This document shows, in pieces, positions 1 through 64,000 of a DNA stretch of 64,000 nt. The stretch is taken from contig CM067529.1 of the NCBI GenBank assembly GCA_034509925.1, positions 12,524,001 to 12,588,000 of the forward strand, in the 5' to 3' direction. Origin of the DNA: Hirudinaria manillensis. Lineage: Eukaryota > Annelida > Clitellata > Hirudinida > Hirudinidae. The notes below the pieces were generated by a model. That model was not told the origin of the DNA. It did no database searches and saw only the letters and a program-made list of their open reading frames with translations. Position numbers and translations under genes: made by a program. Position 1 is the first letter of the stretch. The number at the start of each line of letters is the position of its first letter.

Positions 1-2178
1 ATGTGAAGGTGAAATTATTGAACTATGAGTTTGGGCACTAAGATTGATGCATATTTTGTGATTTCCGTTTCACAAAGATATCGACGAATGTATAGGCATA
101 CCTTGCGGAATGCATCAAGATTGTCTCAACACCATCGGGAATTACACATGCAATTGTATTCATGGATTTTACAGAATTAACGCCAATTCATGTGCCGGTG
201 AGCCTATGAAATCTTTCCGATTCTATTTGTATTTTAATGAATTAAGGTTAATATTTATTTCTTAAATTGCAATAGCAGAAAATGAGTATTTTGAGGTTTG
301 ATGTTTTAAATTTTAAGATGCAAGAACCTTTGTGCTGTACCTTAATTAATTTATGCTTGCATAGACATCGATGAGTGCAAGACTATGGAAAATTGTGACA
401 AAATGAGCACCATTTGTAAGAACTTAGACGGTGATTACGAGTGCATCTGTATAATTGGCTTTGACAGACAAGAGTCTGATTCACCAAAAAGTGGTTGTAG
501 AGGTTAGTTTTAAATAAATAAATAAATTTTTTTTTTTAAATTTCAAGATTTTTTAGCCTTTTTATAATTATTGTTGTTTATCAAATGCTCGTGAGTAAAT
601 TGTCATATTATTATTTCGTGCCATCCACATAGATGTTGACGAGTGCACTTTGTCCGAAAGTTGCGACGAAAGCTCTACCAATTGTGAAAATCTTCCTGGG
701 GACTATGAGTGTCTTTGCAAAGAAGGTTATACTAGAAAGGAATTGATGTCTCGCAAAAGCCAGTGCCAAGGTTTACACAAATCTTCTGAAAGTAATGTTA
801 ATATAGGACGATGTTCACAATAATAATGGCGAGAAGATGACCCATTTGGAAATAGGAACACATAAAATATAACTTTTATTAAAGTAAATTGTTACAAATT
901 GGAACATTTAATCTATTGTTGGATCCCTGGATCCGGATAATCGAAGAATAATTAAAATTATATTGCTGATTAATTAATTTAGCAATTAGTAATTAATTTA
1001 GTGGCAATATAATTTTATAATTAATTAAATAATTAATTATTATTCAGAGTCTTTGGTTATGAAGCTAGACAAATAGATTTATCTCGTAAAGCAGAGCGAG
1101 AGTAAGAGATAATAGCAGATTTCAAGACTTAGACATTTTATCATTGTACCTCTTCCAAGCTATCTGAACACTTTCAATAAACCTGACCTTCCGTAATTAG
1201 TTTGAGGACCCCGGGTTACTACACTATGTTATATTATTACCGTTGTGCTACGGCGGTATCGGCAACGAGCCGTTAGGTGTCGACTTCGATACCCGCCCTT
1301 CTATACAAATAGGACAAAGGATTGCCTTAACATTCCTTCAGATCATATAATGACACTCGAAGGATCGTACAAATATTCAATTCGATAACCTGAATTATGA
1401 CCATAGCTTACTAGAGAAGTAGTGAGAAGTTAAATTACACTATTTAATTTATTTATTTAATTATATTAACTTTTAAATAATCTAATTGAACTTCAGATGA
1501 AGACGAATGCTATCAACAAGACAAATGTCCCAGCGGTGTCGTATGCCTTAACTTGATTGGTTCCTACGACTGCGTTTGTCCAAATGGAACCAATAAACAA
1601 ACGTACACTCATATAATCGAATGTGAAGGTAGATCTAAAGAAAATGGAGCACTATTTATTTTAATCATTCGAAGTTTATTTTTTAAATTTTTTTTTCTGT
1701 TTTAAATAGATATTGATGAATGCGAGATTCCTGATGTTTGTGATCAAACCACCTCCTTCTGTCTCAACACGATTCATTCTTACATCTGTGCCTGCCGTCC
1801 TGGCTATGTTTCAATAAACAACTATACCTGCGTCATCAAAAACCGTATGAAAAGATGCTACAATTTAAAAATAATTATTTGCTTTTACATCGTCGTCCGA
1901 TGAATGATTTCTAAAATTTATTTTAATTTCTAGATGTGACCAAAGCAAACACGTCGACAAGATGGGAAGACATCTATTACACAGAAGTATACGATGAGGA
2001 ATATGATGATATCTTTGAAGATAGTTATACTTACGCTTTCAGCTTTTTCGTCGTCCTTATCGTTGGAGCAGTTTTCATTTCGCTTCTCTGCAGGAACAAG
2101 TACTCTCCTCCGACAAGATTGAGCTCTTTATCATCCGTGTCAAGCAGAACGAATCCAAGCCGTCTTACCAAATTTTGA
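1..2178 (+). CDS. Gene 1 (3' part): cbEGF-repeat transmembrane protein
   Basis: Only the 3' end of this gene is in the window. Proposed exons are 1-8, 78-197, 365-502, 633-770, 1497-1628, 1710-1844 and 1934-2178; all internal exons are phase 1-1 with GT-AG borders. Five complete cbEGF modules are visible, each opening with D-x-D-E-C and carrying a C-x-N-type motif. Modules 365-502 and 633-770 are of the same subtype (ending in a Lys/Ser-rich loop before the last Cys), which is single in every other copy here. The last exon encodes an acidic, Tyr-rich stalk, a hydrophobic helix (FFVVLIVGAVFISLLC) and a Ser-rich basic tail of about 29 residues. AATAAA at 2521-2526 is a possible poly(A) signal. 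The product is probably a type I membrane protein. This is the most divergent copy, and its tail differs from the others. The gene start and any WSC domain lie to the left of the window. Confidence 0.8.
917..1223 (+). mobile_element. Solo LTR (gypsy-type, TGTTGGATCC family)
   Basis: A 307-bp LTR begins TGTTGGATCC and ends CCGGGTTACTACA. It is flanked by a perfect 4-bp target duplication, CTAT (913-916 and 1224-1227). It lies in the intron between exons 633-770 and 1497-1628 of gene 1. It belongs to the same family as the paired LTRs at 28429 and 29915. No internal region is present, so it is most likely a product of LTR-LTR recombination. Confidence 0.85.
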
Positions 2179-3019
2179 CTTATTCAATTTATAAATATTC
2201 CATCGTCTTATGGATAATATAAACATTGTTTTAAAGAACAGTTTATTCCAAAAGCATATATGAAGGCTTTATAGGAACTCCTATTTCTCCAAATATCAAA
2301 TAATTATTTGTTGCTAACATCATAACCATCGCAATGTGTCCCTGAGACATTGGACAGTTCATTGGACATCCAGATATCGACTTACCAACATTTTGATTTG
2401 GTATTGTCACTTTGCCAAATATTTAGAAACTATTAGATTAAGTTTTTCATTTGATTTTAGTAGTATATTTTGTTTTTGATTAATTTTTTTAGTCAGTTGC
2501 ACTACGTTTATGTGTTCTTAAATAAATTATTTTCAAAAAATAATTTACAAAAAATCATGGATTTGAGGTTTCTAATGAATAATTATTGGATATCAAAGTA
2601 AGACATACTGATGATGATGCTTCTTAATTCGATCTTCTTCTGGTTACTGAAAGCCCTCGAGGGAATCATAAAACACTGTGACATTGTGAAAACAAAAGAT
2701 GCCATTCCGAAGAAAGTTATGGATTTTTGGTTATCACCGATTTTATAGTAAGATTATCAGACGGGTTAATATTTCCTTAACTTCCTTAATTTGGAATTTA
2801 GCTAAAGGCACAGAGTATTTTACCACTAAACTAAAATTAGATCAGTCCTTCTTTATTTCGTTCAAAGGTACATTATCGGGATTTAAAATTGAACGTTTTG
2901 AAAATATCGAATCAAGTCATATAAAGAATTAAACTATTTTTATTACAGATAATTTAGTGAGATTAAATTAAAATTTTAAGTATTTAAATGTAGGTATCCT
3001 AGTTTCTGATTCCCCATTT
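2179..3019. other. Intergenic region, genes 1-2
   Basis: About 0.84 kb of AT-rich spacer containing the 3' flank of gene 1. A 77-codon open frame at 2699-2932 has no recognisable motif and no paralogue in the other spacers, so I do not call it. Nothing else is supported. Confidence 0.5.
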
Positions 3020-3038
3020 ATTTTTGAACTGAATGACG
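3020..3038 (+). promoter_or_regulatory. Conserved 5' motif of gene 2
   Basis: The motif TTTTTGAACTGAATGACG ends about 43 bp before the gene 2 ATG. It recurs at the same distance before genes 5, 6, 7 and 8, and nearly so before gene 4, although most other flanking sequence of gene 2 has diverged. It is probably a core promoter or 5'-UTR element; which of the two cannot be told from sequence. Confidence 0.5.
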
Positions 3039-3081
3039 AAACACCGAATGCATTATTTATTTCAATAGGGTTTCGTCGGAG

Positions 3082-6000
3082 ATGAAACTTTTTAGATTTC
3101 GGAGTTTGACTGATTTGGTAATGTTTTTGCATCTATCAGTGTCAATCCCAGTGTTTTATATATTGAACGATGGCAAAGACCAATTGAAATTAAACGATTT
3201 GAGTGATGTGGAATTTAGCACGGTTAAGAAAATTGTCATAGATTTTGTCCATCCATATTACTTAAAATATATTGGACAAAACGATGAATATGGTAAGATC
3301 TAAACTAGAATTTAGACTATTATTGATGATGATGATGATGATTAAGATGATAACGATGACGGTGTTAATGATAATAACGATTATGATTGTTATATGTAAA
3401 TTTGTAAATTGGCGTTAAAATGGTTGGGTTGTGTTATCTTTTTATGGTTTTACCGAAACTGTTGCTTTTAATGACGTACGCAGGAACGCTAACTACATTC
3501 GGCTTACCTATAACATGTGTACTAATATGATAGCGTTTTAACATGTTTTAAATTAATAGCACTCGAATATATTCGTTAATATGAAGTGAAAATGCATCCA
3601 TTTAATTAATTAGAAGTTAGTTATTATTTTATTAATCACAATCAAGTTTTGGATATTTAAATTTTGTTTTTAATTTTAGCTTTTCCTTCGTCATCTTCTA
3701 TTTCTACTACAGTTACAATGTTGCTTCATTGGAGTATTTCGACCCATGCTAAGATGGACTGTACTTTCGAGAGTGCATTTGGGTTTATATGTGATCACGT
3801 TGCTAGAATGGTTATAATAGAAGGAGAGGAATTATTTAATAAAGTTGAATTTGATGGATATGGTATGTTTGTAATGGTGTTCATAATGTTGCCCATAAAA
3901 TATCTATGCTATTATTAATTTGAAACTTATTATGAAATTGGCCACTTACAACTCAGATACCTATTTTGATAATTATATTGGCTGCTTCGAGAATAATAAG
4001 CTACATCCTGCAGAAAGAATTACAAATGAATTGTTCGATTGCATGAGCTATTGTAAAACTTTTTTTTTTGCTCTTGCTGAGGTTAGTTAATAATTTCGCT
4101 AATAAATAATTATCGTTTAATCGATAGAAGGATTTTTTTACCATTTTCGTGGAACGTTTTATTTTTATTTTAATATTTGAAGACATTGGGAGATAATGCA
4201 AAATTTTTCCATAATTCCATTAAAAACAAATTTATATATGAATTTTAAATTATCAGGGAAAGGAATGTATTTGCATCAATGGTACTCGGGAGTTCACTCC
4301 AGTTGAATTGCATCTGTGCAATAGCAAGTGTAAAGTAAAATCCTTCCAAATATGCGGGGGCCGAGATTATTATTCCATCTATAGGATTGGTAAATAACGA
4401 TGCTGTTGAAAAACAATATATTCGATGCTAACAAAATAATCTTTTAATATCATCCGACTAAATTCACTTCAATCCGTAAACTTTTGAAAACCAACTTTAG
4501 GTAAAACCCATGCAGAAGGAAATATAGAAAACAACAAAGTGAATTTTTTTGATCCATCATGGGAATGCATATACACGAATAGGAATTGTCCAATATGTCC
4601 TGAAGGAAGATATGGCTCTAGATGTGAAAATAGGAGTAATTATTATATGAATCCTTTTTATTTGTTAAAATCTAATCTCAATACTTTTTTTGTAACTGTT
4701 TCATTTAGTATGTAAGATTCAGAAAGGAAAGTGTGGAGAAATGGATTGTCAGACGTATACATTCCATTGTTTGGAATGCCGATGCAAGACATGCAATTTT
4801 TCGGTTTCATTGTGCGCATGCAGGCCAGGTTTTTACATATACGGAGAACTTACGGATTGTATAGGTAATAAATAATTATAATTTATATTAATTTTTTAGT
4901 TAATTTTCAGGAACAATAACAATACAAAGCTAAATTTAGATATATTGTTATCCAAATTCAGTAATAATAGCGAATAAACAATCATCTCAAGTACCAGCTT
5001 TTGACCAAACATCTATTCACATAGATATCGACGAATGTCAGGAAGACATTGCAATTTGTCCTGGAAACATGTCTTGTACAAACCTTCCTGGACGTTATTC
5101 TTGCGACTGTTCATTAGGTTACCATTTAGCAGAAGGAGACCTATGCTATGGTGAGGCATGTGCTCATTAAATATTTTCTGGTTCCTTTGGTCTGTTAAGT
5201 TTGAATTTGATTCCGAAAGGTCATTGGACATTCTATATTTAACCATCGTCGTTGAAATGAGTTACTGTCACCGGCAACATTTCTCTTCATTTAGATATTG
5301 ACGAATGTCTGAGCGTAACGTGTGGAGAAAACGAATATTGTACGGATCTTGTTGCAAACTACTCGTGCGATTGTAGGGAAGGTTTCCATAAGACTGTTGG
5401 CAGTAACACATGTGAAGGTGAGGCTTTAAGGATTAATAGCTGAATGATATTCCGAAAATTACCTCAAAATTATTTTTTTTATTTACTTATTTATTTTTCT
5501 TGTCCGCAACATCATTTATATATTTGAGAGAAAGTGTAGGACCGAAGACGCTCACTTGAGGCAAGCCACTTACTACTTCACCGTTATTGGGCAGGTGGTC
5601 ATTCACTTTGCCTGCCTGAGTTCGATTGGATAAAAATGCCTCGAGCCATGAAAGCAGGTTGCCTGAAATGCCATAAGCTTGAAGCTTGGTCAGCTGTCTG
5701 TACCGTGGTGCATTGACAATAACCAATCAATTGTGCACTCGATAAAATTAGTGCATGATGATCTGGAGTTCAGAAAGCCATGTTGTTCAGGGGATATAAG
5801 ACTGTTTGTTTGAAGATGATTTAGGATGTCTGCTAATCATTTGTTCCAAAACTCTGCAGCAAAGGGTGGCAGCGGTATTGGTCAGTAGTGGCCGAAGTCA
5901 GAGGTGGCACCTTTTTATATATCGGGATTACATGGGTGGATCTTCAGTCAAGGGTAGTTCTATTGAAAGAGAAGCTAAATATGTGGGAGATAGGCAGGGA

Positions 6001-8655
6001 GAGACCGGTACTATAGTTTCTAAGGAGGGTGTTTGTTTTAAGTTGACGTTATGCAATTTTATGTTCTATTGGAAATCGACCGGTAGTTAATTTTAGCCAG
6101 GATAGGAAAGGAAAAATAATAAGACGGTTACTGTGGGGGAAAGATGATATACTGGATTAATTTCAATGATTTTTATAAAATTTTGTAATTTATTATTTAT
6201 TATTATATTATAACAAACAACTTATGTTAGATATTTCCCATGTTTGTGTGAGACTGAACTTACTTTAGTTGTTCCGTATATAATTTATGGACCAAATGAA
6301 CAGGTAAAAAATTAGATGATGAATCCAAGAGTTTCAGATATTGCACTTTTACACAAACGTTGTAAAATTTCCAAAGCTCAGATGGGGAACAGGTGGTATC
6401 TCTAGTAAGTCTTATTCTACACAATCCCTCTGGGATGTTTTGAAAGCCAAGCATCGAGCATGGGATACTCTTTGGCACACCAGGTGCAGACCAATTGATT
6501 TGAAAAGAAGAAATAGGACCAGGAATTAGGTGGTACCCACATATGCCTATAGTTAGGCCTGAGTTTACTCTGCGGGAAATCAAAGCTAGCTCAAAAGCCT
6601 GGGTACAAATCGTCAAGGCCAGATGACTACAAGGGCCTTGACAATAATTCAACCATTTGTGACACTTACCGAGTAGATACAAGCTCTGACGTCACAATGA
6701 TCATAAATAGTTAATATTTAATAAAAAAATATTATAATTTTTGTTAATTCTTAAAATATATCACGTCAGATCCCTTAATTTTTGTTTTATTCATTAAATA
6801 TGGCGGATGAGAAGGAACGGGAAATAGAGATGTAGCTTACCAAGAGTACGACCATATCACATGGTAGAAACATCAACATGATTGCAAAGAGACGATTCTC
6901 TCGATTCCATTGTTTCATGAACTAACCGATCGTTTATTTATTAACTGCTAACGTATAACCCAACAGATATCGAGGAATGTCTCGACAATATCTTTGTTTG
7001 TAGAAAAAACTCGCACTGCTTGAATACAATAGGAGGCTATGATTGCAAATGTAACTCGGGCTTCTACGAAACACCAGAGAAACTTTGCGCAGGTGAAAAT
7101 GTTAAATAAATTCAGAATCTTATTTCCCATTATTTCCGAAAATTATTTACACCATTTAATCTCACTTAAAATTAATATTCCACATACCATTTTTCGCATA
7201 TACTTCGTAGAATAACAATCGCTGTACATAATTTTGACTTTGATTATGATCTCGTAGACATAGATGAATGCAACTCTACAGCAAATTGCGACAAAGAATC
7301 CACCGATTGTCAAAACTTATTAGGCGACTATAGATGCCTCTGCAAAGTAGGTTTCGACAGAGGAGAATCAACATCTCTCAAAAACATATGCTTCGGTTAA
7401 TCAAATGAAGATGTTTCTGCTTTGGAAAGGATTAGTCGAGATTAAATTTATTTAAACATCAGTTATGAATAAATAACAATTAATACGAGGTAATGCAATG
7501 ATATGAATATCTATATCTTGTGTCTTGTTCGAGGTTCAGCTTGCAAAGCTGTGGGATGCTCTCAGGTAGAGCGCTTTATAAATGACGATCTACTGAGAAA
7601 TGTCTTATAAAACATTCTATTAGCATGCATTAAACACTTTAAAAAATAAAATAATTAAAAAACATCTATGAAATTATATAAATTACATAATTATCGAGAA
7701 CTCGAATTATTCAAAAGAGCGCTTACGATACGTAAGATGGCGGTATATTTTTTAATGTTCTCTTCATCGTTCTTTGATCAACAGCTTATGAATCATTTAT
7801 TTTTAGGTTTTCTAACTTAAAATATTTTAAGTAAGCAACTATAACTTTTACGAATCTAAAGACATTGATGAATGCAAATCTTCATATTGTCCCGACGGAG
7901 TTTCGTGTATCAACTTACTTGGTTCGTATGATTGCACCTGTCCGATTGGAACAGCAAAGAATGTACTCACTCATGCAATGGAATGCCTAGGTATACCATT
8001 TTAAAAACAGACTGTAAAAAATATAATAAGGTGTTGCAGACATTATTGCTATATTATACCGTTACACAACTTTAATTCAAAGATCATTTACATAATTTTC
8101 CATTTTGTTTGCAGATATTGATGAATGTCTTGACAACCAATTGTGTGATGAAAATTCATCTTTCTGTATGAACGCTTTCAGATATTACATTTGCGTCTGT
8201 CGCACAGGATACGTTACTGTTGACAATTACACCTGTACCCTTTCAGATGGTAAGGTTTACAATTTGAAAATATTGTAATTTTTGTTGTTCCTAAAGTAAG
8301 AAATGAATTTCAACTGTAAAAGCGTCGCAATAGTTGAATTCTAATCTAATCTAATAATTACTGTAGTTCATCTTATTGTTTTTTGTCTCAAATTTTAGAG
8401 TCTCCTGAGACTGATGTAATAGGCGACGACGATGATGATGATGATGAGGAGGAAAAAAGCTTGACTACAGAAATATTCGATGATAATGTGTCAAAGTGGA
8501 TTGTCCAATCCTGGATTGCTTATACTGTAGCTGTTATCATCCTCATTTTATGCGGTGCATCGTGTCTTTTTGTAATCTTTTTCAGATTTCCTAATTCTGA
8601 AAAAAGTCTTAGCTTTGAAACGGCGGATACATCGGAATTACAAGCTGAAAAATAA
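3082..8655 (+). CDS. Gene 2: WSC + cbEGF transmembrane receptor-like protein
   Basis: Thirteen exons: 3082-3292, 3680-3862, 3957-4081, 4257-4389, 4501-4635, 4709-4864, 5025-5150, 5295-5417, 6967-7092, 7258-7395, 7862-7990, 8115-8249, 8399-8655. Frames join without a stop, giving about 658 aa. Order: signal peptide (about 1-28), unknown N-terminal domain to about 131, WSC domain (about 132-217; GCFE, CICI and CGG landmarks), short EGF-like module, Cys-rich module, six cbEGFs (about 315-573), a stalk with a D7E3 run, one helix (about 611-635) and a short tail containing SLSF. Compared with gene 3 it lacks the cbEGF module that begins D-T-D-E-C. Intron 8 (5418-6966) holds transposon debris. Start chosen as the Met aligned with the paralogues' signal peptides. 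The protein is probably on the cell surface. Ligand is unknown. Confidence 0.82.
5484..6110 (-). mobile_element. LINE relic (reverse transcriptase fragment)
   Basis: On the minus strand, 5487-5726 reads as a LINE reverse transcriptase stretch with landmarks LLSWLEAFLSNRTQ, SGLPQVSVFGPTL and YINDVAD. The usual PQGS is degraded to PQVS. Its upstream part (to about 6110) matches the relic at 19920-20290 in gene 4. It sits in intron 8 of gene 2, opposite to the gene, and is not functional. Confidence 0.65.
6111..6966. other. Unidentified insert in gene 2 intron 8
   Basis: The stretch 6250-6700 is richer in G+C than its surroundings and has a 140-codon open frame on the minus strand (6260-6682) without motifs I recognise. 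It is absent from the corresponding introns of the other copies. It is probably transposon-derived, but the class is unknown. The rest is AT-rich intron up to the CAG acceptor at 6966. Confidence 0.35.
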
Positions 8656-10386: not shown

Positions 10387-13300
10387 ATGGGTAATTTTAG
10401 GATTTGGAAATTGATCGTTTTTGCAATAAACTTGCATCTAGCAGCTCCAGTGTTTTATTTTTTGAACAACGGCAAAGATCGAGTGCAAACATACGATTTA
10501 AGATATTTCGATTTTCAAAACGTAAGCAAGATTATTATAGATATGATCCATCCATATTACGTGACAAAGGTTCGAGATAATGATGGATGGGGTGAGATAT
10601 GAACTTATCATTTATTGATTATGATTATCGCTTTATGTGAATATAAAAGCGCACCAACAAGAACCTTAATAGAGCACTTAATCCAATTACTCAGTATCAT
10701 ATGCAATATGATGTATTATGATTGCAGATTCAAGTCAGTTTTATATATTGTTGATGTTTTAGACGTTTATTATGTAAAATCGTTTCCATTGCAGATACTT
10801 TGTCAAGTGATGAAAGTCATTATCCTACAGCTCATTTAAAGTTTCATTGGAACTTGGGGAAACCTAAAGTAAACTGCATCTTCAGTAAGATCGATGGAAT
10901 TACATGCGACGAAGTTGCTAGAATAGTTGTAATAGAAGGAAAAAACATGCAATTTGATTTTCAAGTTTCTGGACATAGTAAGACTTTAATGTTGCTGAAT
11001 AATATTTATATTAATATTAATCTTAAACTTATGAAATGGAACTCTTACGATACAGACATCTATTTTGAAAGATATATTGGCTGTTATGAGTATAAAAAAG
11101 TAGCTAAAGACAAGCCTGATAATGATATGACTATGTGCGTCAACTTTTGTACAACATTATTATTTGCATTTACTAAGGTTGGTTAAAAATTGCGTCTACT
11201 TTCGTTTAATTCATGAATTGGGTTTTATTTTTTCATTTCCGTCAAACATATTCTTTTAACCTCTTAAAATCATTAAATCATTTCCATTAAAGAATAAAAA
11301 AATATATCAAGATATTAAATCCTTTCAGGGAAAGGAATGTCTTTGTGTTGAAGATACTCAGGATTTCAATCCGGTTGGTTTACATTCATGTGATGAAACG
11401 TGCAAGGAATTTCAATTCTGTGGAGGCAGTGGTTATTTCTCCATCTATAGGAGATCATGTAATTAAAGATATTTCTATGTTGTCAAAAATATATTGTGTT
11501 GTTAATGAATTAGAAAAAATATCCAGTAATAATTTCCTTATTTTATTTATAAGATTCACTTTTAACCTAAAAAATGATATATCTATATGATATATCTAAA
11601 ATAATTCAGAATTTCTAACATTTCATCTAATGACTCTTAGATAAATTTGAATAAGAAATTATGATATAATTATTATATGGATTGTTGTCACGTCATATTC
11701 GAATGTCAAATGGACTGTCGAAGCAGTCCATTGAGAGTTTGAGGTAGAGTTTAAGTTATGGTTCGATTGAGTGGAAGTTCGGCTTGATCGACTTCATTTT
11801 GTTTTCAAATACATTGCCTTCTGTTTTGAGTTTGCGTGTTTATTTTTACTTTGATAAAGTTTGACTGAAGTACAGGCAAATCACGCTACTATGCTAGCCT
11901 TCGGGACCTAGCAAAAGTGGTATAGTAACACAGTTTTTTTTTATTAATATTTCGGCCTATTTAAAAATGGCCTTATTTTATCAAATAAAAACGGTTTTAT
12001 TTGCTCAAGTTACCCATTGCTTTTCTGAGCTGACATATGCTAATCTTCACTCAAACTCGCAATTCTCACATAAAATCTCGACATTCACTCTCATTTCTAT
12101 TTACACTCCCAGTCAACTTTGTCCATTCCATCAATGAAATTCTATGGAAAGGTTCCATCACTTTCCTTAATCATCCCTCAACAACAAGAAAGTATGAATA
12201 TATGCTAATATATTAATATATACTGATATAATCTTAAAAATACAAAGTAATATCTCTTAATTACTTCCCCGACAAGGAATATGTCCTTAACTTCATGGGT
12301 TAGATAAATATTGTCAGGACCCTGGTGACATAGTGGCGAGAGTTGAGAGTGGAATAGTAAATTTATTTTGTACTGAATTTTGTCGGGACCAAGCAAAAGT
12401 AGCATAACAGCGATGGTGGAATATAGCGGAGTGGCATAGTAGTCAGTTTTTAATGTAATAGGTTCGAATAGACCTTTTTATTGTACATAAATGTATATTG
12501 AAGTATATTCATTGAAATGGAATTAAAAATTGAATAAAACTAACTGTACGCAAATGCCATGCAGCTGAAATAACAACCGAAAAAATATCATGGGAATGCA
12601 TATACCACGAAATGAATTGTTCAAAATGTCCTGAAGGAAGATATGGCCCAAGCTGTGAAAATATAAGTAATATAATTCTTTATGTTAAAATATGATCTTA
12701 AAACAACTTACAATCGTTTTATTTAGACTGTAACCTTAATAATGGTGACTGTGGAGAAATGGATTGTCAGACATATGTATTCAAATGTCGGGACTGCCGT
12801 TGCAAGACATGCAACTATTCGATATCAATGTGCGTATGCAGGCCAGGGTTTTACTTATTACGAGAACTCACGGATTGCATAGGTAATAATAATTTAAGTA
12901 AAGCTAAAATTTTACAATATTTGCAACAGTATTATGGGAAAATACCATATAATAATAGTAATATTATTATTAATTTAAACAAAATTAAATTGTTACAAAT
13001 CAATGATCTTATTATTTATAATTTTTGGGCGTATATTTATTCATATAGATATCGATGAATGTTATATTGGTGCCTGTCCTGAAAACTCACATTGTATAAA
13101 CATGTTGGGAAGTTATATATGCGAATGTAAAGATGGTTATTATTTAGCTGATGGAAACCTCTGCTACGGTGAGAAGTCTATTTAATATAATAATATTTAG
13201 TTAGTGTAATCTGTCGAGATTTAATTTGATGAAATGAGTTACATTGGAAATTTTGCAAACGGATCGTGGGTTTATCTCTTAAAAAATTTTTTGATTTCAA

Positions 13301-24666: not shown

Positions 24667-25052
<386 letters not shown>

Positions 25053-32582: not shown

Positions 32583-32618
<36 letters not shown>

Positions 32619-43966: not shown

Positions 43967-44759
43967 AACTCTTTCAATTCCTTTGTTGCACGATCCACTC
44001 TTTCAGTAACAACTAAAACTTATATCACCAGACATTGACGAATGCCTTAACAATCTCTACGTTTGTACGAACAACTCGAATTGCGATAATTCCATAGGAA
44101 GCTATAATTAAAAATGTACCTCGGGATATTACGAAACGCCAGAGAAAATATGCGCAGGTAAACGTTAATGTGCATAAGTATATGAATTTGAATTTAATTT
44201 TAATCTCATAGACATGGATGAATGTAATTCCACGACAAATTGCGACAAAGAATCCACCGATTGTAACAACTTAATTGGTGATTATGAATGCCTCTGCAAA
44301 ATAGGTTTCGCCAAAGGGAAATCAAAGTCTCCTAAAAGCAAATGCTTCGGTTAATCAAATGAAGATATTTCTGAGTTGGAAAGGATTAGTCGAAACTTAC
44401 TTTATTTTTAGTGCTGTTAATAGGAATAAGATACCAATGAATTATGTTAATCTGTATCCGTATTCGAGTGCAATCTATACTCCGGTCAAAGCTGTCGGGT
44501 GGGGTTCTGTTTTTTATAGCGATCTATTATTTATTACTTGCTATGGATCCCTATTATGAATAATTTGTCAATGAAAAATCAAAAGAATGATTTAATATCA
44601 TTTAGTTATGTAAACCTTGATTTCCACATAAAAAGCTTGTACGAATGTGTTGGCATAGTTTCTAAAATTGCATTGTTCGCTCTTTTTTCAATTACTTAAC
44701 TCTAAGTATCATCCAATTTAAAAACTTACCATCTGAAATAATTTGAGGAATCAAATTTT
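43967..44759 (+). pseudogene. Two-exon pseudogene fragment of a gene 4-like copy
   Basis: Matches 22735-23577 of gene 4 (intron, exon, intron, exon, part of next intron). Exon 44032-44157 encodes a cbEGF of the gene 4 subtype (contains LNNLYVCTNN) but has an in-frame TAA in place of the Cys after SIGSYN (near 44107). Exon 44212-44349 is an intact cbEGF. It is bounded on the left by a gypsy LTR end and on the right by a minus-strand LINE. It has no signal peptide, WSC or membrane exon, so cannot make a receptor. Confidence 0.85.
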
Positions 44760-49960: not shown

Positions 49961-50312
49961 CTTGCTTTCATATTATCCTTTATCATCTTTTTCACATGCG
50001 GTGCATTGTGCCTTTATATATCCAATTCTTATTCAGATCAAAGTTTTTCTTTTATGTCGACAGCCTCATCGGAATTCCAAGGTGTCGGATAGCTCATACG
50101 TTTTTGTTTTTGTGCTTGTATACCTTGTTAGACCCGTAGCGGTTTTTTTGGCATTATTTAGTTAGGTTTTCAGAGATCATAACATCGCATCTCACCATTA
50201 AAATCCTTGTGTTCAATATCAATTGTAATCGCTACGTTGTCCGTTAATTCTAGCTTGGACAATGGAAAATGTTAATGTTCCTTCTATTTCAAGTTGACAG
50301 TTAATTAAAACT

Positions 50313-50367: not shown

Positions 50368-51867
50368 TCCTTTGGACACGGTGGCCACTCCGGTCATCAA
50401 GCGCTTTCCTCTAATTTTCTCGATGCTTATAACCAAACTTGCTAACCTTTCCTTCACAAACTGCATTTCCCTTCCCCCCACAAGATAGCTCAAGTACTTT
50501 CTCTACTCAAAAAACCTGGACTTATCCCACTCATTCCTGCAAATTATAGACCTATATCCAACCTCACTACTTTCTCCAAGATTATCGAGAGACTTGTACT
50601 TCATCGCATTCGGCCCCACCTCCTCTCTAACTCAAACTTCCAAAACTTTCAATCTGCATATCGAAAGGACCACTCCATTGAAACGGCTCTCCTTCATACC
50701 ATTGACGGTGTCACTTCGGCTGGTAAAGACGGTTGTACCATGCTGATTGCACTAGATCTGTCGGCTGCCTTTTATACTGTTGATCACAGCATCCTTGCCC
50801 AGCGCCTTGATGCTGAATTTGCCATCAGAGGCTCAGCACTGACATGGCTGAAATCCTACCTTGGCTGTAGGAAGCAATTTGTCAAACTCGGCGATAGTTC
50901 CTCCGACCTTGTCACCATTGACGTTGGCGTTCCTCAGGGCTCGGTCCTCGGACCTATCCTCTTCACGGCCTATACCTCTCCAGTCGGCGACTTGATCTCT
51001 AGCTTTGGCTTTAGCTGATGAATGCATCAGAATGATCCAGGAGTGGCACATGGCCAACCAGCTTCAGCTAAATCCCTCCAAGTTCGAGGCCATGCTTCTG
51101 GGAACCCCCCAGAGCATATCGAAGCTGGGTCTCAGCACTGTCAGTCTAGCCGACGAAACAATACCCTTGAAGAGAAACATCAGACTCCTCGGAGTTACCC
51201 TTGACAACAGCCTCCGCCTGGCTGAACACACCTCTTCTGTCATCAGGTCATGTAACTACCTCCTGTGGGCTCTGCGCCATATCAGGCACCTCCTAACACC
51301 TGACATCTCTGCGACACTCTATCGATGCCTCATTCTGTCAAGGCTCGACTACTGTAATGCCTTGCTTCATCAGCTGCCCTCGGCTTCCTTCCGGAAACTA
51401 CAGAGAATTCAAGACAAGGCGGCATGTCTAGTACTGGATAGAGGAGCTGACCCGGCCGACGCCATGAGACTGCTACACTGGCTTCCAGTAAGAGATAGAG
51501 TGAACTTCAAAATCGCCTTAATTGCGCATAAAGCCCTCAGCACTCGGTCACCACCTTATTTGGCGGAGATGCTCTCACCACACCTGCACTCAAGAAGTCT
51601 GAGAGTGGCATCCACAAACTTCCTTAACATCCCCATTCCAAAGACCAGATTCCAGGCTGGCTCATTCAGATTTGCCGCTCCATCTATATGGAACAGTCTG
51701 CCACCCCTGTTAAGATCTGAAATGTCAACCGCCGACTTTAAGAAGAGACTCAAGACTCTCTTTTTTAGGCGTTTGGATTCTTGAAATTGTTGCACTGGCT
51801 CGCATGAATTTGACCGGTACAGCGCCTCTGTAGCTCACGCGTTCGGCGCTATATAAATGACTTATTA
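50368..51867 (+). mobile_element. L2/CR1-like LINE, copy B
   Basis: Longer at the 5' side than copy A: it includes the reverse transcriptase start (LIPANYRPISNLTTFSKIIERL type) and 50740-51018 with LIALDLSAAF and GVPQGSVLGPI. A 77-bp deletion at about 51016 removes the YADD catalytic box and shifts the frame. The C-terminal frame 51005-51784 continues afterwards. Same insertion point and 3' end as copies A and C, so it moved by segmental duplication, not new transposition. Confidence 0.78.
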
Positions 51868-54085: not shown

Positions 54086-57000
54086 ATGGGACATTTTAGC
54101 CTTCGGAATTTAATTATTTTTACGATAACCTTGCGTCTAGCATCCCCAGCCGAACTAACTTTTTATTTCTTAAACAATGGCAAGGAACAGGTGAAATCGT
54201 TAGCTTATGGTAAAATCTACAAATACGTAAACAAGATTGTCATAGATATGTTCCATCCACATTTCGTGGAATATGTTGATGATAATGATAAATGGGGTGA
54301 GATTTGAACTTATCATTTATTGATTATGATTATCGCTATCTGTGAATTTATAAGCGCACCAACAAGAACCTTAATAGAGCACTTAATCCAATTACTCAGT
54401 ATCATATGCATTATGATGTATTATGATTGCAGATTCATGTCAGTTTTATATATTGTTGATGTTTTAGACGTTTATTATGTAAAATATTCAAAAATATTCC
54501 ATTTCAGATACTTTGTCAAGTGATGAAAGTCATTATCCTACAGCTCATTTAAAGTTTCATTGGAATTTTGAAAAATCTTACTGCAACTTCAGTAAGAACG
54601 ACGGATTTTTTTGCGACGAAGTTACTAGACTGGTTGTAATAGAAGGAAAAAACATGCAATTTGATCTTCGAATGTTTGGGCACGGCAAGACTTTAATTTT
54701 GCTGAATAATATTTATGTTAATATCCATCTTAAACTTATGAAATGGAACTCTTGCAATGCAGACACCTATTTTGAAAGATATGTTGGCTGTTATGAGTCT
54801 AAAAAAGTAAATCCTAAACATGGGGAAATTGATGATTTGGCTATATGTGATAACTATTGTGATACAAGTTTTTTCGCTATTTCTAAGGTTAGTTAATATT
54901 TTCGTGGACTTTCGTTTAATTCATGAATTGGGTTTTATTTTTTTCATTTCCATCAAACATATTCTTTTAACCTCTTAAAATATTAAATCATTTCCATTAA
55001 AGAATAAAAAAAATATATCAAGATATTAAAACGTCAGGGAATGGATTGTCTTTGTATTAAAGATGCCGAGAAATTCATTCCGGCTCGTTTGCATTTCTGC
55101 AATGAAATGTGCAAGGAATTTCAATTCTGTGGAGGCAGTGGTTATTTCTCCATCTATAGGAGAAAATGTAATTAATGTATTTTCACTTCACTAAAATTTA
55201 ATAATAACTGAATCTAACTGTGTGAAAATACCGTACAGATCAAACAAGAAAAAGCTATGAACTATCATGGGAATGCATATACCACGAAACCAATTGTGCA
55301 ATATGTCCTGAAGGAAGATATGGCCCAAACTGTGAAATTAGAAGCAATATCATTTGTTTCATTTGCTAAAATTTCTCCTTAAAACAACTAGTAATCGTTT
55401 TTCTTTAGACTGTAGCCTTAATAATGGTGACTGTGAGAGTTTGCAGTGTGAGACATATGACTTCAAATGTAAGGACTGCCGTTGCAAGACATGCACCTTC
55501 TCGATTTCAATGTGTGTATGCCCTCCAGGTTATTACGCCATAAAAGAATTGCACTATTGCGGAGGTAATAATAAATTTAGTGAAATTACAATATTAAAAT
55601 ATTTGTAACAGTATTTTGATAAGAAGCCATATAATAATAGTATAATAAAATGTTATTATTAATATAAATTTAAATTAAATTTTTACCTTAAATGAAATTA
55701 AATTGTTACACATCTATAACCATATACCACAATGTTGTTAATTCAATTAGAAATTATTAATTGTCATTCTTGGCATATATTTGTTCGCATAGATATCGAT
55801 GAATGTCTTGATAAACCTTGTGGTGAACACGGACATTGTGTAAACATGATGGGAGCTTTTGAATGCCAATGTTTCAAAGGTTTTCATTTAACTGAAAGCG
55901 ATGTATGCATCGGTGAGAAATAAATTCAATATAATAGTATGTAGTCTGTGGAGATTGTATTTGATTGAATTTATTTGACAATTTTTACATTCATGGAGAA
56001 TTACCGGATTGTAAATTTAGGTAATTATAATTTAAGTAAACACAAATATTTCAACCCAAAATATTGCAATATTTGTAGCAATATTATAAGAATATGACAT
56101 AACATTCCATATAATAATATTATTATTAATTTAAATAATATTAAATTGTTCCACATCGATTTCCAAATACCGCATTGTTGGTGATCACATGAATTCTTAT
56201 TTTTGCACACACATTTCTTCGCACAGATACCGATGAATGTGAAATAGGTAATGATACTTGTCCTAATAGCACCTATTGTGTAAACACGATAGGAAGTTAT
56301 CAATGCGATTGTAAAGACGGCTTTTTAATTGATGGACCTTTGTGCACTGGTGAGAAAAATATTTAATATAATGATCTTTAACTACTGTGATCTGTCAAGA
56401 ATATGATTGATTGCATGAGTTTCATTGAAATTTCTGTATTTCATCGTAAAACTATTCGTGGGTTTCCCACGTGGACATCAAAGACAAAAAAATGCAAATT
56501 AAAAGTTGAAGTGGTTAAAAGAGTTCGTATTGCGAAGTTGATTTCCATAATCTTTCTCTAAATTTAGACATAGACGAATGTCTGACCACAACGTGTTTGG
56601 GCGAGAATATAATTTGTAATAATATCATTGGTAGTTACTCGTGTGATTGCTTGGAAGGCTTCGACAAGACTGGTGTAAATAACACATGTGAAGGTGAGGC
56701 TGTTTTTAAAATGATTAATGCTAAGTAATTTCTTTTCGTGATTCCTTTTGTTGTGAAAGACAACCACAAGCCTTCATTTTTCTTGTTATTATTGCAAGAA
56801 ATGGAATTATTCCAAAATCTCTCATGGACATCTTATTAATATCGCTTAACATGCTTCTAATCACCAAGCTTAGACTTGGCTTTCAGTGGAACATAACTTA
56901 TTGGTAGAACAATCCACTTTCGTTGTAAATAAGCAGTAATAAGTAAATACTCTTTCAATTCCTTTGTTGCATGAACTAACCACTCATTCAGTAATTAACT

Positions 57001-59659
57001 ACTAAAACTTATATCACCAGATATTGACGAATGCCTCAACAATGTTTGTACCAACAACTCGAATTGCGTGAATTCCATAGGAAGCTATGATTGCAAATGT
57101 ACCTTGGGATATTACGAAACACCAGAGAAAATTTGCACAGGTGAACATTAATGTTAATTAAATTCAGAATCTTATTTCCAATTGCAAGGTTTTTCTTATT
57201 TATAATATTTCAAATTATTAAATTTATTACGCCAAAGATCATTTATCACATATATTTCATTGATTATCACATACAGTGCGCGTCATAAAGATAGGACAGG
57301 TGCATATTTTGATGATATCATTCCAAGTAGTGGAGTTATGTAAACCATTTTTTTATATGATATAGTAAAATACGTTACATTTACAGATTTATCAAATTTA
57401 TTGTGCAAAAATAAATATTTTGTGAGAATTTAACAAAACACTGGAAATCCCCGAAATTGCACACATCAACGAAGAACACTGTGGAGCATAAATTTTCAAA
57501 TTTATTGGATTTAAACTTTTAAATTATGATTTATATGAAAGCCAATAATTAGTTTTGTCTTCTTTCTTCATAATTACTTCTTTAATTCTGTTTTTCAATG
57601 AATCCAGGAAAGGTTTTAGGCTGTCTTCGTCCAGCTCTTTCCAGGCCTTTTCCAAAGAGTCTTTCAGCTCTTGAACGCTGGATTATTGTTTGCCATTACA
57701 ATATATTTTCCTGGCAAGCAATCCCCACACGTTTTTGATGGGATTCAAGTCTGGGGAGCGAGATGGCCACTTGAAAACCTCCAAATTCCTTTTCTTGAAA
57801 AAAAGTTTGGTTGATTTTGCCCTGTAGAGGGGCATTGTCATGCTGGAAGATGACCCTTTCATTTCCAAATTTGTCACATAATGTGAACAAATGATGGTCC
57901 AGAGTTTCAACATATTTGGCAGAGTTTTGCTTCCCCTCTAAGAACACAAGTTCTGAAGAACCTCGAGAGGAAATGGCAGCCCAGACCATCACTGAGCCAC
58001 CTCCAAAATTTCTTTTGAAAAATGAGTTTTTGCGTTTTCTGACATCATGCCAATGAAATTTGAATCCATCTGGACCATCCAAGTTAAATTTTTTTTCATC
58101 TGAAAAAATAACGGACTTCCAGTTGGTGTCCAAATCCAGCATCTCCTTTGCCCAGTTCAGTCGGAACTCCTTGAGGGCCTCCGTCAGAAGCGGCTTGTGC
58201 TGACGCTTAACAAACGTTAGAAAACCACTTCCACGGAGACATCTCAATATTTTAGATCTACCGACATTTAGGTTTAAGCTATTTTTTAGGTCCTTTGTTG
58301 AACTGAGCCCCTTGGAAGCTTCGCGAAGGATGACTCTTCTCTGACGTTCATTCAGTTTTTTTGGTCTTCCAGGGGAACAAATTGTTCCATAACTTTGAGG
58401 ATTACTTAAAAAACGACTAATAACATTTCTAGAGCGATTCATACTCCTAGAAATTTCAGAAATTGACAAATTCAAGTCTTTAAAGGCAAGAATTTGTCCT
58501 CTTTCAACATCATTAAGTTGCTTCCCTAAACCCATCAATAATAAAATTACCTAACGACATTTTATTCTATAAACATGTTAGGGACATCAAGTAATATATA
58601 AGGAGTCTTATTATGTTAATGAAATTTTGTGAAACCTGTAATAAAAATTTTTTTCCTCAACGGAAGAGACCCCACGCTCCGTTGCGGAAACTCCGAGAAA
58701 CAACATCAAAAGTGTTTCTTGGTGGATTCTCATCAATATTCAAATTTTAGTCTTAACTTTTATTGAATACTAATTAATTACTCTCTTATGATCGCTAAAA
58801 TCAGCATTTTGACCGAAGTTTACCGGTAATTTTAAAGATAGAGATAGAAATCTTGTGATTCTAGTACCTGTCCTATCTTTATGACGCGCACTGTATATGC
58901 ATTTCAAATTAATTTTAATCTCATAGACATGGATGAATGTAATTCCACGGCAAATTGCGACAAAGAATCCACCGAATGTAACAACTTAATTGGTGATTAT
59001 GAATGCCTCTGCAAAATAGGTTTCGCCAAAGGGGAATCAAAGTCTTCTAAAAGCAGATGCTTCGGTTAATCAAATGAAGATATTTCTGAGTTGGAAAGGA
59101 TTAGTCGAAACTTTATTTACTTTTAGTGCTTTTAATAAGAATAAGATACCAATGAATTGTGTCAATGGAGATGTATCTGCTGTATCGTGTTCGAGTCAAG
59201 TCTATACACTATTCAACACTGTCGGATTGGGTCCAGTGCTTTATTGTGATCTAAATATTGTTTGCTATGGCACCCTATTTCGAAAAATTGGTCGCTGAAA
59301 AACTGAATAAAGTGACTTGATATATTAGTTATGAAAACATCTATTTGCCCAAAAATGCATATGCACAACATGGTGGTACATATTTTTAATGTTGCGAACT
59401 GAAATAATTTGACGAATCAAGTTTAAACTAAAAATTAAATTTAATTTAAACTAAAATATGATTTACTTTTGTAAATTTAAAGACATCGATGAATGCAAAC
59501 CTTCTCGTTGTCCTGACGGGGTTTCGTGCAACAACTCAGTTGGTTCGTACGATTGCCTCTGTCCGACTGGCACAGCAAAGAAGGAATATGCCCACGCTAT
59601 GGAATGCTTAGGTATACCATTTTGAGTCCAGCATATAAAACTTGAGCTGTTGCTGAAAA

Positions 59660-59692
<33 letters not shown>

Positions 59693-60194
59693 AATATGCC
59701 ATGCGACGTTATTTAATAGTTCTTCTTGACTCATGGTTTGACATTCTGTTTCCAGATATTGATGAATGTCTTGAAGAAGGATTGTGTGATGAAACTTCAT
59801 CTTTTTGCATGAACGCTTTCAACTATTACATCTGTGTCTGTCGAGTAGGATATATTACTGTTGACAATTTCACCTGTATCATGACAACAGGTAAGATTTA
59901 TAATTTCAATAAACATCATAAATTAAGGATAACAAGAGCAAATTAGATGATTTCTTAAATTTTACAGTGTCAAAGAAAGTTGATTTAGATGAAGATACGA
60001 CAAGTGCCATAACTACTCATTCATTCGATGAAAAGGAATCAAAGTCAGATGTCATAACATGGCTTGCTTTCATATTATCCTTTATCATCTTTTTCACATG
60101 CGGTGCATTGTGCCTTTATATATCCAATTCTTATTCAGATCAAAGTTTTTCTTTTATGTCGACAGCCTCATCGGAATTCCAAGGTGTCGGATAG
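54086..60194 (+). CDS. Gene 8: WSC + seven-cbEGF transmembrane protein
   Basis: Fourteen exons: 54086-54296, 54508-54684, 54763-54887, 55038-55167, 55239-55343, 55409-55564, 55793-55912, 56227-56349, 56568-56693, 57021-57140, 58927-59064, 59483-59611, 59756-59890, 59968-60194; open joined frame, about 673 aa, same architecture as gene 6. Two introns have GC donors: intron 5 (55344, as in genes 5-7) and, only here, intron 2 (54685, GCAAGA). Intron 2 is 78 bp with no in-frame stop, so retention would insert 26 residues between the N-domain and the WSC domain. Exons 1-6 resemble gene 6 while cbEGF exons 1 and 2 (55793-56349) match gene 7, so the gene is a mosaic. Intron 10 holds a Tc1-like element. 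The helix is intact (TWLAFIL). Confidence 0.87.
57274..58893 (-). mobile_element. Tc1-like DNA transposon (1620 bp)
   Basis: Perfect 28-bp terminal inverted repeats (57274-57301 and 58866-58893) starting CAGTGCGCGTCATAAAG, flanked by a TA duplication (57272-57273, 58894-58895). The empty site CACATATATGCATTT exists in intron 10 of gene 7 (about 48797-48811) and in gene 5. It carries one transposase gene on the minus strand. Inserted after the gene 7/8 duplication, or lost from the other copies by exchange. Confidence 0.93.
57696..58538 (-). pseudogene. Tc1-like transposase, frameshifted and catalytically changed
   Basis: The 280-codon frame from 58538 has an N-terminal paired helix-turn-helix region (VERGQILAFKDLNLS; SRNVISRFL), a GRPKKL linker (GRP motif), the first catalytic Asp (IFSDEKKFNLD), a GGGSVMVWAAIS segment and the second Asp (FQHDNAP). 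Near 57830 the frame shifts, and the rest (RSPDLNPIKNVWG) is in another frame (57683-57913). The spacing from the second Asp to the third catalytic position is 34, as in DD34E Tc1 elements, but that position is Lys where Glu is expected. Both changes predict no activity, although the ends look intact and could be mobilised in trans by a related transposase. Confidence 0.88.
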
Positions 60195-60420: not shown

Positions 60421-60469
60421 TTTTTAAAAGTTCAAATATCACCTGGTGTTTTTCATTGAAACGAATATC

Positions 60470-61969
60470 TCCTTTGGACACGGTGGCCACTCCGGTCATC
60501 AAGCGCTTTCCTCTAATTTTCTCGATGCTTATAACCAAACTTGCTAACCTTTCCTTCACAAACTGCATTTCCCTTCCCCCCACAAGATAGCTCAAGTACT
60601 TCCTCTACTCAAAAAACCTGGACTTATCCCACTCATTCCTGCAAATTATAGACCTATATCCAACCTCACTACTTTCTCCAAGATTATCGAGAGACTTGTA
60701 CTTTATCGCATTCGGCCCCACCTCCTCTCCAACTCAAACTTCCAAAACTTTCAATCTGCATATCGAAAGGACCACTCCATTGAAACGGCTCTCCTTCATA
60801 CCATTGACGGTGTCACTTCGGCTGGTAAAGACGGTTGTACCATGCTGATTGCACTAGATCTGTCGGCTGCCTTTTATACTGTTGATCACAGCATCCTTGC
60901 CCAGCGCCTTGATGCTGAATTTGCCATCAGAGGCTCAGCACTGACATGGCTGAAATCCTACCTTGGCTGTAGGAAGCAATTTGCCAAACTCGGCGATAGT
61001 TCCTCCGACCTTGTCACCATTGACGTTGGCGTTCCTCAGGGCTCGGTCCTCGGACCTATCCTCTTCACGGCCTATACCTCTCCAGTCGGCGACTTGATCT
61101 CTAGCTTTGGCTTTAGCTGATGAATGCATCAGAATGATCCAGGAGTGGCACATGGCCAACCAGCTTCAGCTAAATCCCTCCAAGTTCGAGGCCATGCTTC
61201 TGGGAACCCCCCAGAGCATATCGAAGCTGGGTCTCAGCACTGTCAGTCTAGCCGACGAAACAATACCCTTGAAGAGAAACATCAGACTCCTCGGAGTTAC
61301 CCTTGACAACAGCCTCCGCCTGGCTGAACACACCTCTTCTGTCATCAGGTCATGTAACTACCTCCTGTGGGCTCTGCGCCATATCAGGCACCTCCTAACA
61401 CCTGACATCTCTGCGACACTCTATCGATGCCTCATTCTGTCAAGGCTCGACTACTGTAATGCCTTGCTTCATCAGCTGCCCTCGGCTTCCTTCCGGAAAC
61501 TACAGAGAATTCAAGACAAGGCGGCATGTCTAGTACTGGGTAGAGGAGCTGACCCGGCCGACGCCATGAGACTGCTACACTGGCTTCCAGTAAGAGATAG
61601 AGTGAACTTCAAAATCGCCTTAATTGCGCATAAAGCCCTCAGCACTCGGTCACCACCTTATTTGGCGGAGATGCTCTCACCACACCTGCACTCAAGAAGT
61701 CTGAGAGTGGCATCCTCAAACTTCCTTAACATCCCCATTCCAAAGACCAGATTCCAGGCTGGCTCATTCAGATTTGCCGCTCCATCTATATGGAACAGTC
61801 TGCCACCCCTGTTAAGATCTGAAATGTCAACCGCCGACTTTAAGAAGAGACTCAAGACTCTCTTTTTTAGGCGTTTGGATTCTTGAAATTGTTGCACTGG
61901 CTCGCATGAATTTGACCGGTACAGCGCCTCTGTAGCTCACGCGTTCGGCGCTATATAAATGACTTATTA
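60470..61969 (+). mobile_element. L2/CR1-like LINE, copy C
   Basis: Nearly identical to copy B, at a constant offset of 10102 bp, with the same 77-bp deletion of the YADD box (near 61118) and the same ends. Frames 60842-61120 and 61107-61886. Inactive. Confidence 0.78.
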
Positions 61970-62263
61970 GTCGCATATTAAGTGGTCATAAATTGATCTG
62001 TCTAACTCTGTCATTAGGAACTACGCATCGATTGAAGTCAATCTATTTAAGATCAGCAACACAGGTAGATTCCATAGATACATCAGTATCTTTATCAAAT
62101 ATCGCTCCTATGACCAGTGTTGTCCCCCAGGGTAGTGTGCTTGATCCTGCACTCTTTTCATTGCACATCAATGATCTTATACAAAGATACTGGTGTCGTT
62201 TGCAAAGTATTTGCTGATGACGTTAAGCTTTAATGCTTCTCAACGTCGTCCAAAACCCATCAA
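61970..62263 (+). mobile_element. Older LINE fragment (block C)
   Basis: Third copy of the LINE fragment also seen at 34627 and 51868. Confidence 0.65.
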
Positions 62264-62767
62264 ATCATATATGTTGTTCCAGGTACAGTTTCTGGCAGCA
62301 TTGGGATGGAGTCATTAGAAGACACATCCGACCACCCCGTGCGTGTCTCCAGAAAAATTATGTGCATAATGGGAGACTCAGAGGATTTACCGTTGGAGCC
62401 CATGGAGTCACCAGTTCAGGTCGAGACGTTAGCAGGGCCCAGAGAGCTCACGGATGTTTTAGTGGAGCAAGTGGAGCCTTCGGAAGAGCCCGTGGATTTA
62501 CTAGCGGAACACTTGAGATCAATTGGACCTGTAGAGTCTACGGAGGAGTCCGCGAAATTACCAGCGGAGAGCATGGAATCAGCTAAGTCAGTGGGGCCTG
62601 CGGATGTTTCGGCCCCATTGGAGATAACAGAAGGGAGTGCTCGGGATTTCGGAAGTGATGGGAGACTGCCTAGCATGGAAAGTGGAGAAAGCGATCCTGT
62701 AGAGAGTTTGAGATATGGCGACATGGCGGAGCAGGAGGGCCTAAAAACTATCATTTCACGTAATTGA
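62264..62767 (+). mobile_element. gag fragment (block C)
   Basis: Frame 62306-62767, the same 153-residue acidic part of the SAP-gag protein with a few substitutions. Confidence 0.7.
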
Positions 62768-63948
62768 ACCCAGAATGGGCACATTTCATTTCTGAAACTT
62801 AAGAATTTGTAAAACTACTTAATAATGGTACTTAACTTAGCTTCGTTTTTCATATTATCAACTTTAAACAAGTTATGTATTATTTAATTTAATTATTTTA
62901 ATAATAATTTAAATTTTCGACTTTTTTCAAGTCAAACGGATGGCAAGATTTTCGAAAAAAAAATGGCATTTTTACCTGATTTGATTGATTTTATTGATTG
63001 TTTTCTTGGTATCAGCAATATAACACAAATAACAATATAAGGACCGCGAGTATATGATACCAAAGGATCCCGAAGGGAACAATGTTCCCGCTAGATGAGC
63101 AACCTATTCACAAAAAAAACCAACAAGTTACAAATCTATTCCATGGCTATTATACATTAAAGTTCACTTTAGCGGCTTATGAGAGTTTGAAGTATTATTT
63201 TATATTTAGCTTCGTTTTTCACATTATCAACTTTAAACAAGTTATGCACAAATGAAATCCAAGAGGTTCGGCAGCAAATATGCTTTCGAAATTGGCCTCC
63301 TTGGTACTTCTCGAACTCGGCATAATTTCTTTTCAGAATGACGAAAAACGACTTTACCAACTTTCCGATAATATTCCATCGCGAAAATTGTTCGCAATAC
63401 ACTTTTTAATCGAAGTTCTAATTATCTTAATGACATTTATATGAAACCTATACAGAAAAACACTCCTCTATTCGAGTATTTTGTTATGTCAAATTGATTA
63501 TGTGCAATTTTTATGTATATAGAAGAAATGAAAATGCAAACATTTTCTAATATGTTTATTTTTACAATTTCACAATGTTTAGTTTGACCAGTTTTACCTC
63601 TAGAGTCTCTGGAAGAAACAAACTAAATATAAATATAATATAATAATATCATGAAATTATTTAATTAAATTATTTTAATACAAATATAAATATTCGACTT
63701 TTTTTCAAGTCCAATGGATGGCAAGATTTTCGAAAAAAATGGCATTTTTATCTGATATTGTTGTGACAATTATATGAAACCTATATAAATACACTCCTCT
63801 AGACAAGTACTATGTTGAATCAAAATTTCAAAGTAATTGGTCAAGAACTTTCAGAGAACATTCATTTGAAAACAAACACACATTAGCGATTTTATTTTTA
63901 TGGATTAAAATATATATATATATATGTAGATTAAGAACAAAATAATTT
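62768..63948. other. 5' flank of a ninth gene copy
   Basis: Homologous to the flanks of genes 6 and 8. One of the two 128-bp-spaced direct repeats is missing (only one at about 63452), as after recombination between them. No gene. Confidence 0.55.
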
Positions 63949-64000
63949 TAAATTTTAAAGCGAAATTTATGTTGTCTAGTTTCGCTGTTTTCGGTTATTT
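63949..64000 (+). promoter_or_regulatory. Start of the proximal 5' block of a ninth copy
   Basis: AATTTTAAAGCGAAATTTATG followed by GTTTTCGGTTATTT, the sequence that precedes genes 5, 6 and 8 by about 60-110 bp. The window ends before the ATG, which would be expected about 60 bp further on. Confidence 0.6.

Follow-up and report, generated by a model that had tools for sequence, protein, structure and literature searches.

The 64,000-nucleotide stretch analysed here (the window), bases 12,524,001–12,588,000 of contig CM067529.1 (C4) of the leech Hirudinaria manillensis, contains a tandem array of genes that encode putative membrane proteins with a WSC domain on a stalk of serial calcium-binding EGF (cbEGF) modules. 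We mapped the genes by tblastn with the 13 exon peptides of one unit, U5, over the window and 20 kb on each side (104 kb in all; pieces L041 and L040 on the left, L038 and L039 on the right), followed by splice-site refinement. The splice models assume GT–AG sites by construction, U7 and U8 excepted. All units lie on the plus strand, in the order Um2, Um1, U0, U1–U5, a relic, U6, U7, U8, a second relic, U9 and U10. The window itself holds seven full paralogues (U1–U7), the 3′ part of U0 and the relic of two EGF exons; Um2 and Um1 lie to its left, and everything from U8 onwards to its right. A first-pass annotation made from the sequence alone had described eight visible same-strand paralogues with one exon plan and a ninth at the right edge, which is correct when the U0 tail is counted; the ninth, U8, has its start codon at 64064, 64 bp past the end of the window. 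The models of Um2, Um1, U0 and U10 are incomplete; they leave out three cbEGF-like matches in Um2 and U0 that lack usable splice sites, as well as the final cbEGF of Um1. Regular spacing, co-duplicated blocks at 97–99% identity and common intron phases exclude chance as the origin of the arrangement. Because the published H. manillensis assembly was built from HiFi reads and Hi-C (PMC10671345), an assembly artefact is also unlikely.

Within the window, U0 (1–2178, its start lying further left) begins with the last bases of one cbEGF exon, followed by cbEGF exons at 78–197, 365–502, 633–770, 1497–1628 and 1710–1844 and by a transmembrane (TM) exon at about 1934–2178, the latter read by eye. U1 (3082–8655; 637 amino acids) and U3 (18337–24288; 628 amino acids) each have 13 exons, six cbEGFs and a WSC profile match. 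U2 (10387–17563; 667 amino acids) and U4 (26623–33120; 669 amino acids) each have 14 exons and seven cbEGFs. The reference unit, U5 (36850–41383; 14 exons, 669 amino acids), matches the EGF_CA profile and, below the cut-off, the WSC profile. The spliced frames of U1–U5 are open, with no internal stops, and U9 also keeps an open frame, in each case across 13–14 exons. The relic (44032–44349), found by tblastn together with its second copy to the right of the window (71287–71604), has an internal stop in one of its two exons. In U6 (45529–50092; 14 exons) a TGA codon falls where the TM helix begins (exon 49866–50092); if expressed, its product would be a soluble ectodomain, or else U6 would be a pseudogene. 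U7 (54086–60194) likewise has 14 exons.

Each unit follows the same plan: a signal peptide, an N-terminal domain of about 110 residues spread over two exons (the N-domain), one WSC domain, a pair of small Cys-rich modules, six or seven cbEGFs, and finally a TM helix followed by a short tail rich in Ser. The modelled introns are all phase 1, save for a phase-0 intron that splits the WSC domain. In U5, the second half of the N-domain is encoded by exon 2a (37272–37448), which is followed by a 78-nt intron (37449–37526), the WSC domain by exons 37527–37651 and 37801–37930, the seven cbEGFs by exons between 38531 and 41079, all phase 1-1, and the TM helix with the Ser-rich tail by 41157–41383. For the exon preceding the CSLNNGDC exon, the U5 donor is either 38094 or a site downstream of it, and the donor modelled in U0 and Um2 is poor.

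The first-pass annotation had read exon 2 as one exon. It is in fact two, separated by a short intron (84 nt in Um2, Um1 and U0; 94 in U1; 78 in U2, U4 and U5; 71 in U3 and U10; 73 in U6 and U9) with mostly GTAAG donors and CAG acceptors. Where its length is a multiple of three (78, 84) this intron can be read through, and where it is not (71, 73, 94) it had looked like a frameshift; apparent frameshifts in U1, U3, U6, U9 and U10 were accordingly dropped as pseudogene marks once the intron was recognised. Since the intron sits inside the former exon 2, the N-terminal domain comprises about 110 residues rather than the 130 originally proposed. GC replaces GT at the short-intron donor in U7 (54685) and U8 (64663, right of the window), and in both the 78 nt stay open in frame; these genes would either splice a GC–AG intron or add 26 residues in frame.

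The WSC domain becomes visible to Pfam only when the exons are joined correctly. In the four array copies tested in this way against PF01822 (curated cut-off 27.8 bits), the model was covered to within one residue in every case; U1 (33.2 bits) and U3 (32.2 bits) scored over the cut-off, U0 (23.9 bits) and U5 (19.4 bits) under it. Three more copies, joined by eye, also exceeded it: L035 and L036 on C4 (13.37 and 13.43 Mb) and L008 on contig C11. U5 has seven EGF_CA (PF07645) stretches (E = 8e-48) and no Pfam match to the 8-Cys TB domain; its first 159 residues, in a model that still included the 26 intron-derived residues, matched nothing in Pfam. The calcium motif D/N-x-D/N-E/Q-C is present in all seven cbEGFs of U2 and U4–U9, all six of U3 and five of the six of U1. 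By hydropathy, all eight copies checked have one hydrophobic stretch near the C-terminus, with 19–23 residues after it. An N-terminal hydrophobic stretch rose above threshold only in U1–U3 of these eight, and the signal peptide was read by eye. Profile matches, motif counts and hydropathy together bear out the initial description of a type-I membrane protein combining WSC and cbEGF modules with one helix and a Ser-rich tail. We know of no signalling or docking motif that the tail resembles.

The N-domain had been put forward as a possible new domain. We assembled fourteen diverse copies, with exon joins partly by eye. A Pfam search returned three matches, each from a single copy and to an unrelated family (best E = 0.054), and a PDB sequence search one match, to a designed bundle (E = 0.55); both results are what chance would give. 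A sister gene on C11, L008, has an F5/8C domain at the position of the N-domain (PF22633, E = 1.1e-8; FBP32 in PDB, E = 1.6e-7). This domain, like the N-domain, is interrupted by a phase-1 intron, in roughly the same position, and is joined to the WSC exon at a phase-1 junction, as in the window genes. We compared a profile of the fourteen N-domains with one of eight F5/8C domains from sister genes, using 100 column shuffles as a control. The whole-domain profiles aligned with a probability of 31% and a score of 26.9 (shuffle maximum 19.5), and the first halves with a probability of 74% and a score of 26.3 (shuffle maximum 15.4); five control profiles scored 6.6–10.5 against the N-domain first half. 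The alignment falls over a W-x-V-D-L strand. With hidden Markov models (HMMs) the similarity was weak in both directions: the N-domain HMM gave the eight F5/8C domains 2.8–5.9 bits (reversed sequences, at most 0.2), and the F5/8C HMM listed 13 of the 14 N-domains, with scores between −0.7 and 6.4 bits, U5 being absent.

On the grounds of gene position, intron phases and first-half similarity, we consider that the N-domain probably descends from an F5/8C (fucolectin-type) domain that has become worn and diverged. Several results weigh against this reading. The second-half profiles scored 8.5, within the shuffle range, and show no F5/8C similarity; none of the 14 copies matches an F5/8C family in Pfam; a global profile alignment of the two domains failed (score 2.2); and reversed U5 reached 2.4 bits under the F5/8C HMM, above 10 of the 13 listed N-domains. 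The proposal of a new domain thus survives in part: the N-domain matches nothing in Pfam or PDB beyond chance and its second half lends F5/8C no support, but its place in the gene, the phases of its introns and its first half suggest a diverged member of a known family.

The array bears the marks of recent duplication. Blocks repeated 10.1 kb apart are 99.1% identical, those 17.2 kb apart 97.5% and those 27.2 kb apart 96.9–97.0%, transposon pieces included, a pattern that unequal crossing-over would leave and that agrees with the earlier description of a young, expanding array. The two relic copies share the same internal stop and were copied as part of the 27-kb duplication. Frames for reverse transcriptase, all from a single type of retroelement (33443–34540, 50446–51784 and 60548–61886; the first matched RVT_1) have been co-duplicated with the genes.

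Divergence between units is uneven along the protein. U2 has nearly the stalk of U5 and a dissimilar head: identity is 41–74% in the head exons and first cbEGF, 93–100% in cbEGFs 2–7 and 88% in the TM exon. U2 thus looks like a mosaic. The contrast lies mainly in amino acids. Synonymous divergence spans 0.03–0.53 in the head exons and first cbEGF and 0.04–0.21 in the rest; as these ranges overlap, gene conversion is an interpretation of the U2 pattern and is not proved. Across U4–U9, variable residues number 0 of 81 in the small modules, 19 of 290 in the cbEGFs, 14 of 84 in the WSC domain, 20 of 108 in the N-domain and 15 of 74 in the TM helix and tail; residues of the head are more variable than those of the stalk. 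Pooling 15 pairs that are not independent of one another gives nonsynonymous-to-synonymous ratios of 0 for the small modules, 0.38 for the cbEGFs, 1.33 for WSC, 0.65 for the N-domain and 1.69 for the TM helix and tail. Exon-13 values for pairs with U6 were discarded as an artefact of its stop codon.

Other features of the window include integrase pieces of a long terminal repeat-type element (42707–43739, plus strand), a Tc3-like transposase on the minus strand (57699–58550) between the U7 exons at 57140 and 58927, and a 379-residue open frame with a SAP domain on the plus strand between U4 exons (28796–29932), which is probably from a mobile element; frames partly like it recur at 34.9, 52.1 and 62.2 kb. 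A long four-base repeat (TTTA-like) with LFIY repeats in three frames lies between U3 and U4 (24587–25111).

We next consider the family across the genome (a single genome, 148.43 Mb on 23 contigs). The N-domain with the first WSC exon gave 29 matches at 24 places by our grouping, all on C4: 18 on the plus strand at 12.427–12.610 Mb and six, distributed over both strands, at 13.339–13.428 Mb. E values were 0.07 and 0.74 for the two weakest matches. The TM exon gave 10 matches, all at 12.532–12.609 Mb, and the two small modules 43, all on C4. The WSC profile is more widespread, with at least 96 matches on eight contigs, dense on C2, C11, C12 and C4 (a lower bound, as 150 of 333 candidates were scored). 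Related WSC genes are clustered on the three of these contigs other than C4. Read by eye, L004–L006 and L008 (C11), L076 (C12), L077 (C2) and L078 (C4, about 12.85 Mb) have, within the span of each piece, WSC exons followed by window-like modules; all except L077 also show cbEGF exons, and L004 and L008 show TM exons.

Several observations lie beside this family. Two loci, L001 (C1) and L002 (C3), seem by eye to fuse WSC with a C-type lectin domain, and L003 is xylosyltransferase-like, also by eye. Exon clusters of F5/8C type (PF22633; L045–L074) occur mainly at C10:2.55–2.89 Mb and C11:1.72–2.66 Mb; scoring of 150 of 232 candidates gave at least 49 matches genome-wide. Hirudin-family matches, several over the Pfam cut-off, lie on C4 at 12.237–12.250 Mb. 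C23 is the mitochondrial contig with COX1, in which TGA stands for Trp, ATA for Met and AGR, where a judgement was possible, for Ser, as in the invertebrate mitochondrial code (by comparison with COX1 of other animals). A nuclear COX1 match of equal score, L042 (G000:C9:3024946–3029286), reflects either the recent insertion of mitochondrial DNA or a join made during assembly.

The genes most like those of the window are in the same genome. The WSC-WSC-EGF-cbEGF genes on C2, C11, C12 and C4 (about 12.85 Mb) share with them the split WSC domain, a CSxNNGxC-type module, the cbEGF exons and, where the locus reaches one (L004, L008), the TM exon. They differ in having two WSC domains, whereas the window genes have one and a worn N-domain; the clear F5/8C domain stands in front in L008 and is lacking in L004. 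We found no description of these sister genes in the literature searched. FBP32, the fucolectin-type lectin matched by L008, has no direct match to the window N-domain, whose first half resembles the L008-like domains but which is shorter and has an unaligned second half. Yeast Wsc sensors and polycystin-1 also carry an extracellular WSC domain on a membrane protein, although the stalks and tails of yeast Wsc and animal WSC proteins are of other kinds. To our knowledge, none of these proteins has a cbEGF stalk or forms a tandem array of this kind. Fibrillin (FBN1) shares the serial cbEGFs; fibrillins are matrix proteins with TB domains, while the window genes have a WSC domain and a TM helix and lack a TB match. 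The nearest annelid report that we found is glycerotoxin of Glycera, a venom protein described as having a signal peptide, WSC domains and a calcium-binding EGF near the N-terminus (PMC5336659). Likened here by description alone, it has one cbEGF, two WSC domains and a CCP domain, unlike the window genes. A literature search of titles and abstract openings, with most subscription journals outside its reach, found no leech family with WSC on a cbEGF stalk. The parts are known. The literature searched holds no account of their combination, of its presence on several contigs or of its fast expansion in an annelid that feeds on blood.

Together, these observations suggest, at about even odds in our judgement, that the window holds a lineage-specific and still expanding array of glycan-recognition or adhesion receptors in a blood-feeding leech. 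A lectin-like head, in which the worn F5/8C-type domain is joined by the single WSC domain and the pair of small Cys-rich modules, would be displayed on a calcium-stiffened cbEGF stalk and held by one helix. The tail measures about 19–23 residues, and the protein would act through partners or by clustering. The head would diversify while the stalk is kept by purifying selection, perhaps also by copying between units. Such genes would be expressed at the cell surface, bind glycans, signal with partners and may serve an immune or gut-surface role, functions that we infer. Three points temper this interpretation. WSC and F5/8C domains occur too in enzymes, matrix and venom proteins; the TM helix and tail are as variable as the head, as relaxed constraint would also produce; and ratios above one (WSC, TM and tail), coming from pooled non-independent pairs, are no proof of positive selection.

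A different role is suggested by a comparison of three leech genomes, which reports twelve FBN1 copies in the two blood-feeders and four or none in the others, with FBN1 expression rising during feeding and tied to body swelling (PMC10087013). If the window genes were all or part of this expansion and encoded structural, elastic matrix, their fibrillin-like serial cbEGFs would aid swelling after a blood meal. We regard such a matrix role as improbable, given the TM helix, the WSC domain and the lack of a TB match in the window genes. TB domains exceed the cut-off at a single locus in the genome (C12:2.666–2.690 Mb, 9 of 10 matches; all 14 candidates scored), and in a PDB sequence search the cbEGF stretch ranks ADGRE5, NELL2 and Notch ahead of fibrillin, although the latter is represented there only by short pieces. 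Since TB domains are confined to one locus, most of the reported FBN1 copies can hardly have them, and the chances seem to us evenly balanced that the published expansion consists of WSC-cbEGF genes of this kind. A WSC domain on a stalk with one helix would also suit mechanical or stress sensing at an epithelium, a role proposed for yeast Wsc sensors and polycystin-1, with the head binding matrix or glycocalyx and the stiff stalk transmitting force. The leech body wall or gut stretches strongly in feeding. Two reports draw the comparison with yeast Wsc and polycystin-1 (PMC5336659, PMC9024836). An array with diverging heads is not needed for a sensor, however, and the short tail has no recognised docking motif, so that we hold this role, too, to be improbable.

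The copies may instead rise and die by unequal crossing-over as selfish or neutral tandem duplications, mostly with no new function, as the nearly identical blocks with transposons inside, the two relics with the same stop, the U6 stop and the GC donors of U7 and U8 might suggest. Dosage or decay of this sort appears unlikely as the main account, in view of the open frames of U1–U5 and U9, the constraint on the cbEGFs and the complete lack of amino-acid change in the small modules. A receptor array for recognition or adhesion is the interpretation that we prefer. A bolder extension of it, which we put forward only as a speculation and consider rather unlikely as a whole, is a leech multi-array system of lectin-headed receptors, in which heads would be swapped by conversion, some members would be secreted or carry an in-frame linker, and feeding-induced expression would be what was published as FBN1; this would form an annelid repertoire directed at non-self or at the blood meal.

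Large variable receptor families are a usual invertebrate route to recognition without antibodies. With its many close copies at known spacing, this array is well suited to the study of unequal crossing-over and, possibly, exon-wise gene conversion in nature. If the FBN1 expansion does correspond to this family, the published account of body swelling in blood-feeding leeches would become one of surface recognition.

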